Shown here one piece after another: positions 22,913 to 61,790 of a stretch of DNA of 64,000 nucleotides. Source of the stretch: Gemmatimonadaceae bacterium (GTDB taxonomy: Bacteria > Gemmatimonadota > Gemmatimonadetes > Gemmatimonadales > Gemmatimonadaceae). A program made the translations under genes and the position numbers. The DNA lies in assembly GCA_020851035.1 (NCBI GenBank), contig JADZDM010000023.1:1-64000 (forward strand), in the 5' to 3' direction. Each line of letters starts with the position of its first letter. Positions within the stretch are counted from its first letter, which is position 1. Under the pieces are notes generated by a model. That model searched no databases. It had not been told where the DNA came from and was given only the letters and a program-made list of their open reading frames with translations.

Positions 22913-22928
22913 CCCCGCGCCCGTTCAA

Positions 22929-23034
22929 GGGGACGGGGATCTTGAACTCGAGGGGACGGGGATCTTGAACTCGAGGGGACGGGGATCTTGAACTCGAGGG
23001 GACGGGGATCTTGAACTCGAGGGGACGGGGATCT
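22929..23034. repeat. Tandem array of a 23-nt REP-like unit (five copies)
   Basis: Units begin at 22929, 22952, 22975, 22998 and 23021 (last one incomplete). Each carries the octamer GGGGACGG, pentamer GGATC and TTGAA, and the first is preceded by TTCAA. The copies are identical over their shared length, implying recent expansion. The array sits between queD and the next lipoprotein gene; the same unit forms a 50-nt hairpin at 25654-25703. Confidence 0.9.
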
Positions 23035-25653: not shown

Positions 25654-25703
25654 GTTCAAGGGGACGGGGATCTTGAATCTTCAAGATCCCCGTCCCCTTG
25701 AAC
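25654..25703. terminator. Perfect 24-bp inverted repeat between convergent genes
   Basis: Two 24-nt arms (25654-25677 and 25680-25703) are exact reverse complements with a 2-nt spacer. The left arm is one complete 23-nt repeat unit (TTCAA, GGGGACGG, GGATC, TTGAA) with one extra base. A very stable hairpin in either RNA, placed between convergent genes, so it probably serves as a bidirectional terminator. Confidence 0.7.
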
Positions 25704-28829: not shown

Positions 28830-29266
28830 GCGGGAGGGCGGTACAGTGGGTCAGGCGAGGCCAATGTCCGGTGAAGCAAGGGAACCGGGCACCCCGGAGT
28901 AATTACACGCGATTCATCCTGCTGCCAACTGCGCCGGTGCGCACGCGGATGATGATGCCGTCACGCGAGGGCGCGTCCGGCGCCTGTCGTGATGCATCTT
29001 GCGCCACCGCAAGAGCTTACGCCACTCGCCGGGCGCTGGTCCACGCACCAAAGGGGTCTGCGCACCAAAGGGGTCTGAGTCAGCGACCTCCGTCTGACTC
29101 TGAGTCAATTGCCGCACGATGACTCAGAGTCGTTCGCGAGAGTCGTTCGCGAGCGCGGCCCAGCCCGCCTCACGCGCCACACGCATACCCACCCAGCCAC
29201 CGCGCGCACATCATTCCCGTGGCGCCCCGCACCGGGTCGCTGCCGCCCACCCGCCGGAGACTCCCC
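28830..29266. repeat. Divergent intergenic region with short direct and inverted repeats
   Basis: 437 bp with no gene. Features: a 16-nt direct repeat (GCACC, AAAGGGG, TCTG) at 29045-29060 and 29062-29077; a 12-bp inverted repeat, GACTCTGAGTCA at 29096-29107 and its complement at 29120-29131; and a 13-nt-period duplication (GAGTCGTTCGC) at 29127 and 29140. The GACTC[A/T]GAGTC core also occurs upstream of acnA. Promoters for the sigma factor and the peptidase must also lie here. Confidence 0.6.
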
Positions 29267-40649: not shown

Positions 40650-42089
40650 TTACGGGCGGATCGGCTTCAGTTCCGTGCGGCGGTTCAGCGCGCGACCGGC
40701 GCGGGTCCGGTTGTCGGCGCGCGGCTCGCTCGGGCCGTAGCCCTTCGTCTCGAGACGCGAGGCGTCGATGCCGGCGGCAACCAGCAGGCGCTTGACCGAG
40801 GCTGCGCGAGCCGCCGAGAGGCGGGTGTTCGCGCGGGCCGAGCCGGTGTTGTCGGTGTGGCCACCAACCTCGACACGGACCGTCGGCGAGGCCTTCAGCA
40901 TGTCGGCGGCACGCAGCAGCACGGTCCGCGAGGCGGGCGTGAGAGCGGCGGAACCGGTGCGGAAGTTCACACCTTCGAGGACCAGGGTCTTGGCGGTGTC
41001 GAGCACCGAGTTGACGACCGGGCAACCCGTGGCATCCACGCGGGTGCCAGCCGGGGTGCTCGCGCAGCGGTCGGCGTCATCCATCACGCCGTCGCCGTCC
41101 GAGTCCTTCGGGACCGGGCAACCCTGAGCTGTGACCTGCGTGCCACGCGGCGTGTTCGGGCAGCGGTCGCTGGCATCCGCCACGCCGTCGCCGTCGCTGT
41201 CGATCGGGCAACCAGTGGCATCCACGCGCACACCAGCCGGCGTGTTCGCGCACTTGTCCTGGTAGTCCGCGACGCCGTCCTTGTCGCTGTCGACCGGGCA
41301 GCCAGTGCTGTCCACCGTCACGCCAGCCGGCGTGTTGGCGCACTTGTCCTGGAAGTCCGCGACACCATCACGGTCGCTGTCGAGCGGGCAGCCGGTCGCG
41401 TCGACACGCACACCTGCCGGCGTGCTCGCGCACTTGTCGTTCTTGTCGGCCACACCGTCGCCGTCAGCATCATGCGGCTTGGTGTTGAACAGGTAGCTGA
41501 CGCCGAACTGGCCGCCGATGTTCGTGCTGCGCTTGTTGTTGAACAGGCGGTTCGTGCCGTTGTCGAACTGCGAGCCGTCCACCGTGACCGCGGCGCGGAA
41601 CGCGACGTTGTCGGTCAGGCCGAGGCGCGCGCCGATCAGCGAGGCCCAGCTGTACTCATTGAACTTCTTCACGGTCTGAGCGGTGTTGGAACCAGCCGGC
41701 GAGTTGGGTTCCAGCCACCGCTGCTCATTGCGGACAGCGCCAAGTCCGAGGAGGAGCTCAACCTGCTCCTGCACCGGAATCGAGAAAACACCGCGGAGAT
41801 GAATCGGCGTGTACGACGACAGCGAGCGCGTCGCCACAGGGACATTGGTCACGCGGCCGTTCGCGGACGAGAGCTCGGTCTCGACGGCGAAGTTCCGGTG
41901 CAAGTACAGGCCGAGCAGGCCGGTCGGCGAGGTCACGGACGAGAAGCTCTTGATGCCGACGTCCGACACGCGGACTCCGGCATTGACTTCGACCGTACCA
42001 GCCTGGGGCGTCTGCGCAAACAGCGGCGCTGCGCTGATCGCAAGCGCGAACAGCGAGCCCGCCGAGCGCAGGCGAACAGATAGCGTCAT
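40650..42089 (-). CDS. OmpA-family outer-membrane protein with thrombospondin type 3 repeats
   Basis: 479 aa. Signal peptide 1-25; a predicted eight-strand beta-barrel (about 27-205, ending FGVSYLF); five thrombospondin type 3 repeats (about 208-370) of the form D-x-DGDGV-x-D-x-x-D-x-C, ending GCP, which bind calcium; and an OmpA peptidoglycan-binding domain (about 375-479) with VEVGGHTDNTGS and NTRLSAARAASVKRLL. It should tie the outer membrane to the cell wall, and repeat number may vary by recombination between the ~93-nt DNA repeats. A GGAGG site lies 5 nt before the ATG. Confidence 0.95.
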   Translation of the reverse strand: MTLSVRLRSAGSLFALAISAAPLFAQTPQAGTVEVNAGVRVSDVGIKSFSSVTSPTGLLGLYLHRNFAVETELSSANGRVTNVPVATRSLSSYTPIHLRGVFSIPVQEQVELLLGLGAVRNEQRWLEPNSPAGSNTAQTVKKFNEYSWASLIGARLGLTDNVAFRAAVTVDGSQFDNGTNRLFNNKRSTNIGGQFGVSYLFNTKPHDADGDGVADKNDKCASTPAGVRVDATGCPLDSDRDGVADFQDKCANTPAGVTVDSTGCPVDSDKDGVADYQDKCANTPAGVRVDATGCPIDSDGDGVADASDRCPNTPRGTQVTAQGCPVPKDSDGDGVMDDADRCASTPAGTRVDATGCPVVNSVLDTAKTLVLEGVNFRTGSAALTPASRTVLLRAADMLKASPTVRVEVGGHTDNTGSARANTRLSAARAASVKRLLVAAGIDASRLETKGYGPSEPRADNRTRAGRALNRRTELKPIRP

Positions 42090-56887: not shown

Positions 56888-58456
56888 TCAGCGCGCCGGC
56901 GGCACGGGCCAGGTGCGACGCAGGTTGCTGGTCTCGAACACCGCCATCGTGACGGCCGTGTCGCGACCGCGGAGTACCGGCAGCATGCGGACGAAGCGCA
57001 GCGTGTCGAACATCGACACCAGGGGGTAGGCGCGGTCCCACATCTCGACGGTGGAGAACCCCTTCGGCACTGCCATCAGCATCAGGCCGCGGCGGCCGGG
57101 CAGCGTGTCGAGGCCACCGGCGAAGCGGAAGTGCCGCGTGTCCTGGTTGAGCAGCACGATGGGGTGCGCCGGCCCGAGTGCGTAGCCCACCTTCGACCCG
57201 CGGATCCAGTCGGTCACGGCGACGTACGAGGCGCGCTGGAGCGTGCCGTCCCGCTCCAGCGAGTCCTTCAGCGCGCGATAGGTGAGGAGCTCGAACGCCG
57301 GGTCACGCCGGTGCAGCGACGGCACCAGGCTCGCGACCCAGCCCGTCGCGGCGTGCGAGACGACGATCGTGACCAGCGTGACGTAGACCGCCGCCGCGCG
57401 CATCATCCAGCGACGTGCCAGGGCGGGCGCGCGCTCCTCCCAGCGAGCGATGGCGGCGCCGAGCAGCGGCAGCAGCAGCAGGTAGCCGGGGGCGGGCCAG
57501 TGCGGCAGCCCGGGGTGGCCACCGAGCGCGGCGAGCGTGAAGACCAGCACAGGGGGGAATCCGAGGCACACGCAGAGCCAGGTGGTGCGGCTCGCGGGCC
57601 CGGCGCGCAGCGCCTTCGCCAGCACCGCGATGGTCGGCACCCAGAACCACGGCATCAGGTAGCCCGCCTGGCCGGCGAGGTTCTGCAGCAGCGACACGAC
57701 GGGGGTGGTGCGGCCAGCGGCGCGGCCCGACTGGAACCGGAACGAGATCCAGTCGTGCTGCGCGTTCCAGGTGAACACCGGGATCACGCAGGCCAGCGCG
57801 ATCCCGATCGCCACGTACGGCGCGGGGTGCCGCAGCCAGCGTCGTGCGCGCGCGTCGGTGGCGACGAAGGCCAGCAGGCCGGCGCCGAGAAGTGCGGCGT
57901 GGTACTTGGACAGCCCCGCGGCACCGAGGGCGATGCCGAGTGCCAGCCAGGCCGTCCACGGCCCGTGGCGGGCGGGTTCGCGCCCGTTGCCGGCGGACAC
58001 CGGCACGGCGTGCGCGAAGGCGAGCGCCGCGGCCGCCGTGGCGCAGAGCAGCGGGCCGTCCGGCAGCACCCAGCCGCCGCTGCTGAAGCCGAAGACGGGC
58101 ATGACCTGCGCGACGGCCAGGGTCCAGAGCCCGGCACGTTCGCCGAAGAGCCGCGCGCCGAGCCGGTAGAGCAGCCACGACGTGGCGACGAAGAGCAGCA
58201 CGAACGGCAGGCGGAGCACGAACGGCGATTCGCCGCCGATCGCGGCGGCGGCGTGGGTGATCCAGAAGACCGCTGGCGGGTGGTCGAAGTAGCTGGCCGA
58301 GAGCGTGCGGGCGATGACGGCCTCGTACGACTCGTCCACGCCGAGGGGGAGGAGCGCGGCGGTGAGGAGGCGGAGGGCGGTGGCGGCGCCGAGGACGGTG
58401 AGGGCGCGGCGGTGTGTGATGTCGCGGGCGCGCGGGTCCGGGTGCGGCAGGGGCAT
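56888..58456 (-). CDS. Glycosyltransferase family 39 (PMT/ArnT-like) membrane protein
   Basis: 522-aa polytopic GT-C glycosyltransferase with about 11 helices. The catalytic acidic pair DE (Asp41, Glu42) in LGVDESYEA, the YFDHPP motif (56-61) and ERAGLWTLAVAQVMP segments fit family GT39, which transfers sugars from polyprenyl-phosphate carriers onto lipids or proteins. The C-terminal ~120 residues form a soluble domain. ATG 58456 is preferred; the frame upstream runs into the repeat array. Convergent with the PHP-DUF3108 gene after 16 nt. Confidence 0.87.
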   Translation of the reverse strand: MPLPHPDPRARDITHRRALTVLGAATALRLLTAALLPLGVDESYEAVIARTLSASYFDHPPAVFWITHAAAAIGGESPFVLRLPFVLLFVATSWLLYRLGARLFGERAGLWTLAVAQVMPVFGFSSGGWVLPDGPLLCATAAAALAFAHAVPVSAGNGREPARHGPWTAWLALGIALGAAGLSKYHAALLGAGLLAFVATDARARRWLRHPAPYVAIGIALACVIPVFTWNAQHDWISFRFQSGRAAGRTTPVVSLLQNLAGQAGYLMPWFWVPTIAVLAKALRAGPASRTTWLCVCLGFPPVLVFTLAALGGHPGLPHWPAPGYLLLLPLLGAAIARWEERAPALARRWMMRAAAVYVTLVTIVVSHAATGWVASLVPSLHRRDPAFELLTYRALKDSLERDGTLQRASYVAVTDWIRGSKVGYALGPAHPIVLLNQDTRHFRFAGGLDTLPGRRGLMLMAVPKGFSTVEMWDRAYPLVSMFDTLRFVRMLPVLRGRDTAVTMAVFETSNLRRTWPVPPAR

Positions 58457-58589
58457 CCTCGTCGGCGGTGCAGGGCGTGCCGGCGGTGGGTGACGGCGCG
58501 GTCTCGGAGGGAAGAGGGTAACCGTGGCCGCGCCACGGTCCAAGGGCGGCCGCGGCGGCCCGGATTCAGCGCGCCATGCGGTGCGCGCC

Positions 58590-59030
58590 AATCGGTGACA
58601 GTGCACGAATTGCCAGCGCCAATCGGTGACAGTGCACGAATTGCCAGATCCGGTGACGAAATCCGGTGACAGTGCACGAATTCTGGAAATCCGGTGGGTG
58701 GAAATCCGGTGACAGTGCACGAATTCTGGAAATCCGGTGACAGTGCACGAATACTCCTGTGGAAATCCGGTGACAGTGCACGAATTCGCGAAATCCGGTG
58801 ACAGGGGAAATCCGGTGACAGTGCACTAATTCGCCGAAATTCGGTGACACGAAATCCGGTGACAGTGCACGAATTCTCCTGAAATGCGTGCACTGTCACC
58901 GGATTGGGCCTGTCACCGATTTGGCCTGGAATGCGTGCACTGTCACCGATTTCGCTGTCACCGATTTCGCGGCCCGGAATTGCCCCGGTGTGCCCGATCC
59001 GCGAGTTTCGTGCACTGTCACCGAATTGCA
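58590..59030. repeat. Head-to-head array of GGTGACAGTGCAC repeats
   Basis: Twelve forward copies of GGTGAC or a close variant (58594, 58625, 58652, 58665, 58693, 58708, 58736, 58769, 58797, 58814, 58843, 58858) are followed by five reverse copies (GTCACC at 58895, 58912, 58942, 58957, 59017). Eight forward and three reverse copies are full (with AGTGCAC and GAATT); the rest are truncated. Full and truncated units alternate, giving a composite period of about 40-45 nt. The junction copies form a 15-bp stem. The 58457-59056 gap holds no gene. Confidence 0.92.
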
Positions 59031-59056: not shown

Positions 59057-59971
59057 ATGCAGTCGCCCCGTGCCGTGAAGCTCCCGCTCGCCAGCGCCCT
59101 GATCTTCGCGCTGGCCGCCTGCGGCAAGCCACCCGCACCGCCGGCCGATTCCACGGCCATCGCCACGTCGCCGGCCAGCGTGGCCGGTGACTTCCGGGCG
59201 CCGCTCGGGGTCCAGTTGTGGAGCTTCCGCACACTCTCCAAGGACGTCCCGGCGATGCTGGCGACGGTCCGCGGCATGGGCTTCACCCACGTCGAGACAG
59301 CGGGCCTCTACGGCAAGTCGCGCACGGAATTCGTCGAGGCCGTGCGCACGGCCGGCCTCACGGCGACCTCCATGCACGTCGGGTACGACGACCTGAAGAA
59401 CCATCCCGACAGCGTGATCGCCGACGCCAAGGCACTCGGCGCACAGTACGTCGGCATCGCCTGGTACCCGCACGACTCGACCGGCTTCACGCTCGCCAAC
59501 GCGCGCCAGGCCGTGCAGGACTTCAACGCCTTCGGGAAGACCCTGAAGGCCGCCGGGCTCACGTTCTTCTACCACAACCACGGCTACGAGCCGGTGCCGC
59601 ATGGGGACGGCACGTTGCTCGACCTCATCATCACGGAGACCGATCCGTCGCTGGTGAGCTTCGAGATGGACGTGCTCTGGACGTGGCTGCCCGGCCAGGA
59701 CCCCGTGGGGCTGATCCGCAAGTACCCGGGGCGCTTCAAGCTGATGCACATCAAGGACATGAAGCCCGGCCTGCCCCGCGGCTCACTGGCCGGCGGGATC
59801 GCAGACTCGCTGAAGGCGCCGATCGGTGCCGGCCAGGTGGACTGGCCCGCACTGCTGCAGGCCGCGGAGCGCGACGGATTCACGCAATTCTACGTCGAGG
59901 ACGAAACCACCGACCCGGTGCACAACGCCCCGCTGAGCATCACGTATCTCCGCGGCATGAAGTACCGGTAA
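59057..59971 (+). CDS. Lipoprotein with a xylose-isomerase-like TIM-barrel domain
   Basis: 304 aa with signal peptide and lipobox ALAAC (Cys22), then a sugar phosphate isomerase/epimerase-type barrel (about 48-304). Seen: LGVQLWSFRTL, FTHVETAGLYG, the metal-site strands FYHNHGYE and VSFEMDVLW, LMHIKDMK and the final FYVEDETT. Conserved His, Glu and Asp positions suggest a divalent-metal isomerase or lyase acting on sugars outside the cytoplasm. AGGAG lies 9 nt before the ATG. The repeat array ends only ~35 nt upstream of the start and must overlap its promoter. Confidence 0.88.
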   Translation: MQSPRAVKLPLASALIFALAACGKPPAPPADSTAIATSPASVAGDFRAPLGVQLWSFRTLSKDVPAMLATVRGMGFTHVETAGLYGKSRTEFVEAVRTAGLTATSMHVGYDDLKNHPDSVIADAKALGAQYVGIAWYPHDSTGFTLANARQAVQDFNAFGKTLKAAGLTFFYHNHGYEPVPHGDGTLLDLIITETDPSLVSFEMDVLWTWLPGQDPVGLIRKYPGRFKLMHIKDMKPGLPRGSLAGGIADSLKAPIGAGQVDWPALLQAAERDGFTQFYVEDETTDPVHNAPLSITYLRGMKYR

Positions 59972-61521: not shown

Positions 61522-61790
61522 CATTCGGTGACAGTGCACACATTGCTGGGAGCTGGTACAGTGTCACCGTTTCTCGCTCCGCGTCACCAGCCCGGGGCAT
61601 CCCGGTGGGGCGTTCCGGTGGCAATGCAGCGAGAGCAGGAGAATTCGTGCACTGTCACCGAATTCCGTGTCACCGAATTCCGGAGAGCAGGAGAATTCGT
61701 GCACTGTCACCGAATTCCGGCAGTGGGGCATTCCCGTGGGAGTGCAGACGACTCAGGGAAATTCGTGCACTGTCACCGAATTGCAGGGAC
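61522..61790. repeat. Second cluster of GGTGACAGTGCAC repeats
   Basis: One forward copy (GGTGAC at 61527) and reverse copies (GTCACC at 61563, 61583, 61654, 61669, 61706, 61772). Full reverse copies at 61654, 61706 and 61772 have perfect GAATTC-type arms. A block starting GAGAGCAGGAG at 61631 is repeated 52 nt later at 61683, carrying one full and one truncated unit. The cluster fills most of the gap 61497-61870, which holds no gene. Confidence 0.9.

Follow-up and report, generated by a model that had tools for sequence, protein, structure and literature searches.

A seventeen-unit repeat array in a Gemmatimonadaceae genome, very probably a cluster of TIRtron-type RAYT end repeats

What is the nature of an array of short repeated units lying between two divergent genes of a Gemmatimonadaceae bacterium: a gene switch, or a piece of mobile DNA? 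The array was found in a stretch of 64,000 nucleotides (hereafter the window; contig JADZDM010000023.1, positions 1 to 64,000), which belongs to contig 23 of a draft assembly of 4.97 Mb. On one side lies a gene encoding a PMT_2-type glycosyltransferase (56888..58456, minus strand), and on the other, divergently, a gene encoding a xylose-isomerase-like TIM-barrel (AP_endonuc_2) putative lipoprotein (59057..59971, plus strand), both genes being outside the element. Judging from sequence comparisons, the array most likely belongs to a mobile-DNA family and is not a gene switch. It is very probably a non-autonomous, TIRtron-type cluster of RAYT end repeats, of a family that was probably horizontally acquired and then amplified.

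The array (58585-59029) is composed of 17 units, and the twelve forward units meeting five reverse units described in the initial annotation were all located. The forward half (58585..58879, plus strand) comprises eight full units (cores at 58593, 58624, 58664, 58707, 58735, 58768, 58813, and 58857) and four head-only units (58651, 58692, 58796, and 58842). The reverse half (58883..59029, minus strand) comprises three full units (cores at 58888, 58935, and 59010) and two head-only units (58910 and 58955). The exact 14-mer CGGTGACAGTGCAC is present in all 11 full units, while the remaining six units are shorter heads. Within full units, an AT-rich arm (e.g. GAAATC) is mostly found in front and a tail (e.g. 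GAATTC) behind. Successive full units are spaced by 28-45 nt and head-only units stand 13-18 nt ahead of the next unit, so the composite period of about 40-45 nt first proposed is only approximate. With up to two mismatches allowed, the window contains 17 occurrences of the 14-mer, for 1.4 expected and a maximum of 6 in 100 shuffles. Sixteen of these occurrences are inside two arrays, the second of which (61526..61778) belongs to the same family, with full cores at 61526 (plus strand) and at 61647, 61699, and 61765 (minus strand), together with partial units close to 61562 and 61668.

At the junction of the main array (58853..58905), the two innermost full units, one forward and one reverse, constitute an inverted repeat with a 15-nt gap, in which 58853-58871 pairs with 58887-58905. 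The stem is perfect, as initially reported, but it is 19 bp long and not 15 bp. The DNA fold has an energy of -25.9 kcal/mol (z -9.0). The heads are turned outward and the tails inward, which is the layout of a RAYT element minus its gene.

We then considered the whole genome, in which 138 exact copies of the 14-mer were counted (82 and 56 on the two strands), for 0 copies of a control pattern. These copies are dispersed over 14 contigs in about 40 clusters. In the placed clusters that were fetched, the 13-mer GGTGACAGTGCAC was found 142 times exactly and 166 times with at most one mismatch, in 43 clusters and single copies. According to a simple, codon-based, home-made gene caller, which gives approximate gene positions, 141 of these 166 copies are outside called genes, in DNA called about 80% coding. 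With the same approximate calls, 13 of the 28 spacers bearing repeats are convergent vs. 29 of the 167 without them (P = 4e-4 when spacers are counted, P = 0.06 on the basis of their length), and 6-7 of the 28 are divergent.

Such abundance was seen in no other sampled genome of the phylum. The 395 genomes evenly drawn from the phylum of the window belong to 11 families, a structure that might fit Gemmatimonadota, and none of them recurs in the alphaproteobacterial sample described below, so the organism is not an alphaproteobacterium; the draft genome gave no 16S match. Among these 395 genomes, the genome studied here has 138 copies, a genome of the same genus (G001) has 8, and every other genome has at most one. 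A second congener (G002) has a single exact copy. With one mismatch allowed, the counts are 176 here, 29 in G001, and 4 in G002. Exact copies thus represent 78% of the copies here (138/176) vs. 28% in G001 (8/29), so the copies of G001 look decayed. The copy number of REP and REPIN sequences is known to track the presence of a RAYT gene (PMC2817692; PMC3116915). No RAYT match was found in G001, and G002 carries a RAYT fragment. The 20 genomes reached through a GTDB scan contain 2-45 copies each, the 138 copies found here being the richest case seen. Nine exact 14-mers were found in a MAG titled Candidatus Kuenenia stuttgartiensis and labelled as a planctomycete, which may be another cross-phylum case or a contaminated bin.

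Three genes of the genome encode a Y1_Tnp protein, and the one located on contig 2 is bracketed by this repeat. This intact RAYT of 220 aa (C2:173084-173743) lies between forward cores at 173013 and 173067 and reverse cores at 173842, 173964, and 174061, that is, between inverted repeats with their heads outward and their tails inward. The protein matches Pfam Y1_Tnp above the cut-off (9e-10) and NCBIfam REP_Tyr_transpos with 70.7 bits, just under the cut-off of 80. It conserves the HUH residues H60/H62, together with Y119 and N123-P124. When an alphaproteobacterial homologue was modelled with AlphaFold (mean pLDDT 86), the best PDB match of the model was the solved RAYT 4er8 (E 2e-8); a PDB search by sequence with the RAYT gave no match, and no helix-turn-helix domain was matched in Pfam at E 0.1. 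A search for plasmid carriage of the clade of the contig 2 RAYT returned a best match with only 35% identity. At the L151 locus, the RAYT is flanked on both sides by AATCCGGTGACAGTGCACT, in inverted orientation and with at most two mismatches.

The organisation closest to this one is that of TIRtrons, in which a RAYT-like gene lies between inverted repeats (TIRYT repeats) that are unrelated to GTAG REPs (Di Nocera et al. 2013, PMC3733652). Here too, a Y1 (HUH) transposase gene is found between inverted, non-GTAG terminal repeats. According to the text of the same paper, some TIR families are moderately abundant and occur as dimers and clusters, and the repeats described here are likewise dispersed genome-wide as dimers and clusters. 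Some of the TIRs mentioned in that text share the motif GGGGWSAS; this motif, present in only some published TIRs, is matched with one mismatch by GGTGACAG here and exactly by the ends of sister RAYTs (CGGGGACAC and GGGGACAG). Compared with TIRtrons as that text presents them, the family studied here differs by its mixture of full and head-only units, by a 14-mer common to two phyla, and by its 138 copies in a single genome. Neither this repeat sequence nor head-only units were found in the running text of the papers searched, as distinct from the figure giving the published TIR sequences, and a text search of papers with the repeat sequence returned only an unrelated paper on a human gene. 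Most published TIRYTs fall within subclass 2.1 of TnpA-Y1 (PMC6006769; RAYT group 1 of Bertels 2017), and no REP-like sequences were seen near subclass 2.1 genes in that study (PMC6006769). A C-terminal HTH extension is a feature of this subclass, and the RAYT studied here is predicted by the model to have a helical C-terminal extension.

The array could alternatively be a classic REP/REPIN (BIME) cluster, i.e. a palindromic, GT(A/G)G-tagged repeat associated with a RAYT of group 2 or 3. As in these systems, the repeats are in high copy number and extragenic, they form inverted doublets, with a strong hairpin at the junction, and the cognate RAYT lies between inverted copies (Nunvar 2010, PMC2817692; Bertels and Rainey 2011, PMC3116915). 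However, no GT(A/G)G tag was found in the consensus of 166 and of 290 copies outside the foot of the unit, and the unit lacks the GC-rich palindrome of classic REPs. Single units are mostly devoid of a stable palindrome. We had considered a hairpin formed by a single unit, and this candidate was rejected: the folds of two typical units (-0.4 and -1.1 kcal/mol) were not better than those of shuffled sequences. One single copy with a GAATTC arm folds at -4.3 kcal/mol, and covariation between the arms is slight here and absent in Alphaproteobacteria. Moreover, the exact match of the sister RAYT ends with GGGGWSAS is to a motif reported, in the text cited above, for TIRs (PMC3733652). A classic REP cluster is therefore unlikely, although it is the best of the alternatives, and we retain the TIRtron-type reading for a family that behaves as a REP/REPIN population would.

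We then investigated the origin of the RAYT and of its repeat. The GTDB scan for closely paired 14-mers retrieved 82 stretches, nearly all from Alphaproteobacteria. Many of these loci present forward units, a RAYT gene, and reverse units, the units being about 720 bp apart and the gene about 230 codons long, with motifs found in RAYTs (HHVTQRGNG, MPNHVHLIL, and YVxLNPVRA). A RAYT tree was built from 59 rows, namely the alphaproteobacterial loci of the scan, an alphaproteobacterial sample drawn independently of the repeat, and genomes of the phylum of the window. A RAYT was scored as positive when the 14-mer, with at most one mismatch, was present within about 450 bp. All 23 positive RAYTs are on one side of a single branch (support 100/96), and the 14-mer label changes only once on the tree, vs. 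18.4 times on average when labels are shuffled. These 23 RAYTs are that of contig 2 and 22 others, whose sources are Alphaproteobacteria or loci with no more than Proteobacteria in the title. In the repeat-independent sample, the 14-mer was found in only part of the wider RAYT group. The genome's two other RAYTs, like the remaining RAYTs sampled in the phylum, are elsewhere in the tree and lack the 14-mer; their ends, where visible, are mostly of the GGGGTCAG or GGGGACAG type. Forcing the contig 2 RAYT into the group that holds most RAYTs of its phylum was rejected (p-AU 0.026). The fork joining it to its nearest sister has a support of only 91/71, and its branch is longish.

The contig 2 RAYT is thus inside the alphaproteobacterial branch of the 14-mer and apart from the other RAYTs sampled in its phylum, from which we infer that the RAYT and its repeat were acquired together by horizontal transfer. 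The donor side would be the Alphaproteobacteria, as the repeat is widespread in this class and nearly absent elsewhere in the phylum of the window. REPIN/RAYT systems have been described as vertically inherited, their horizontal spread being unlikely (PMC8049555), whereas the system studied here appears to have crossed phyla. If true, this would be contrary to the view that RAYT/repeat systems are only inherited vertically.

Two other loci have features of their own. A contig from IMG/VR (L231:1896-2653) carries a complete element, with two forward units, a RAYT with 48% identity, and one reverse unit; this contig, classed as viral, may be a vector or a piece of host DNA misclassified as viral. 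As a rule, RAYTs are described as single-copy genes. In Sphingomonas naasensis (L097:260-2660), two near-identical RAYTs are found close together, the second reading frame being preceded by an additional, fused partial RAYT.

The head-only units are not random, as they stop at preferred positions. Near the clusters of this genome, truncation at CGGTGACA was seen 25 times (1.6 expected) and at CGGTGACAG 24 times (0.17 expected). The corresponding figures for the alphaproteobacterial loci are 22 (1.5 expected) and 44 (0.36 expected). Near the clusters of this genome, no prefix ended one base later. Units consisting only of the other end were also looked for and rejected: what looked like GTGCAC fragments is the palindrome GTGCAC seen from the other strand, so only the head-side truncations are real. 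The end repeats of RAYTs from nearby clades (CGGTGACAGCTTA, CGGYGACAGTTTACT, CGGGGACACAATACC, GGGACACTATAC, and GGGGACAGTTTATTTAA) have a near-constant head and a variable tail. Since the head is retained among sister RAYTs while the tail differs, the head-only units stop about where the part that is constant between lineages stops. The spacing falls into two classes, mostly 13-18 nt from a head to the next unit and at least 20 nt between full units, which supports a unit made of two modules. Furthermore, neighbouring inverted units are nearly always arranged heads-out, like those around the RAYT gene, both here (18 vs. 2; P = 4e-4) and in Alphaproteobacteria (34 vs. 6; P = 8e-6). Read on the opposite strand, the break is located around the C-T step of GTGCACTGTCACCG. 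TnpA-REP enzymes cut at CT (PMC8266576), and by analogy this C-T step is a plausible candidate nick site. At another locus (L186, genome G082), a RAYT with a different end repeat (1363-1998) has tandem head-like units AGAGCTGGGGTC on both sides, which suggests that head-only units exist in other RAYT families too.

From these patterns, we infer the mobility of the repeat, its nick site, and the direction of its transfer. The RAYT would recognise single-stranded repeats, nick them, and join them, and in doing so would have spread and concatenated the repeats. The head-only units would arise as by-products when repeats are cut, or strands transferred, at the boundary between head and tail, with a possible contribution of slippage between heads. 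More tentatively, and with somewhat less than even confidence in the whole, we propose that the repeat has two recognition modules, a shared head (CGGKGACAS) and a lineage-specific tail, that cutting at their boundary makes the head-only units, and that the complete system moves between phyla and amplifies. The origin, spread, and concatenation of REP-like repeats are an open question. The sharp contrast within a single genus (138, 8, and 1 copies) and a RAYT with its cognate 14-mer common to two phyla both bear on it. Boundary cutting would offer a concrete hypothesis for the origin of composite arrays, and the recognition code lends itself to testing with sister RAYTs, whose heads are the same but whose tails differ.

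Slippage or recombination, acting locus by locus from a few chance copies and without a transposase, would also produce arrays. The tandem head units of 13-18 nt do resemble slippage products, and units of one cluster tend to have similar flanking arms, so that units may be gained locally in this way. As a general explanation it is nevertheless quite improbable, given the dispersal of the copies over 14 contigs, their heads-out orientation, the existence of a cognate RAYT, and the dependence of the repeat on the RAYT lineage. Amplification by slippage had been envisaged at first: the family is amplified indeed, as shown by its excess over the two congeners, but the agent is most likely the RAYT transposase and not plain slippage, because the copies are found on many contigs and flank a RAYT gene.

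Another suggestion was a multi-site operator, in which a regulator would bind the repeated core and control one or both divergent genes. The position is as first described (about 35 nt before the lipoprotein start): the array lies in the divergent region, and 33 nt separate its last core from the ATG at 59057. The core is also highly conserved. However, the approximately 40 clusters are found beside many different genes, mostly in non-divergent spacers and with a preference for convergent ones, and the 14-mer also brackets RAYT genes in other bacteria. In G002, the ortholog of the array-adjacent gene (86% identity) has only one core copy upstream, and the glycosyltransferase neighbour is about 4.6 kb further off than in the window. 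As a regulatory feature the array is therefore not conserved, and it is unlikely to serve the adjacent gene in any dedicated way. We consider an operator very improbable.

A structured RNA or attenuator, in which the transcribed inverted array would fold and regulate the downstream gene, is even harder to sustain: the 19-bp junction stem and its z of -9.0 are in its favour, but any inverted repeat pair yields such a stem, single units mostly lack a stable fold, no Rfam match was obtained, and the array is not conserved at the ortholog of the congener. Equally remote is an assembly artefact or a contaminant contig, for although this is a draft genome and repeats are difficult to assemble, the same units occur in many independent assemblies and as a genome-wide family, and the neighbouring gene is 86% identical to a same-genus ortholog that also keeps one copy.

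Finally, other repeats were observed in the window and in the genome. A second family, AAGGGGACGGGGATCTTGAAC, is present at 22927-23016 and 25658-25699 of the window as four tandem copies and an inverted pair. It matches the repeats that flank the second RAYT of the genome (L137:6829-7695), with three copies on each side, and copies are likewise found within one cluster of the first family (L148, at 14631 and 14863), forming a hybrid array. The third RAYT (L134:6684-7496) has several GAAAGGGGACAGAGTCCGGGCAC repeats on its downstream side. At 29044-29153 of the window, small tandem repeats (CGCACCAAAGGGGTCTG and AGAGTCGTTCGCG, two copies each) resemble pieces of the GGGGTC...AGAGTC end repeats of RAYTs. 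An imperfect tandem repeat, with a unit of about 90 bp and 3.5 copies, is located at 41148-41465.
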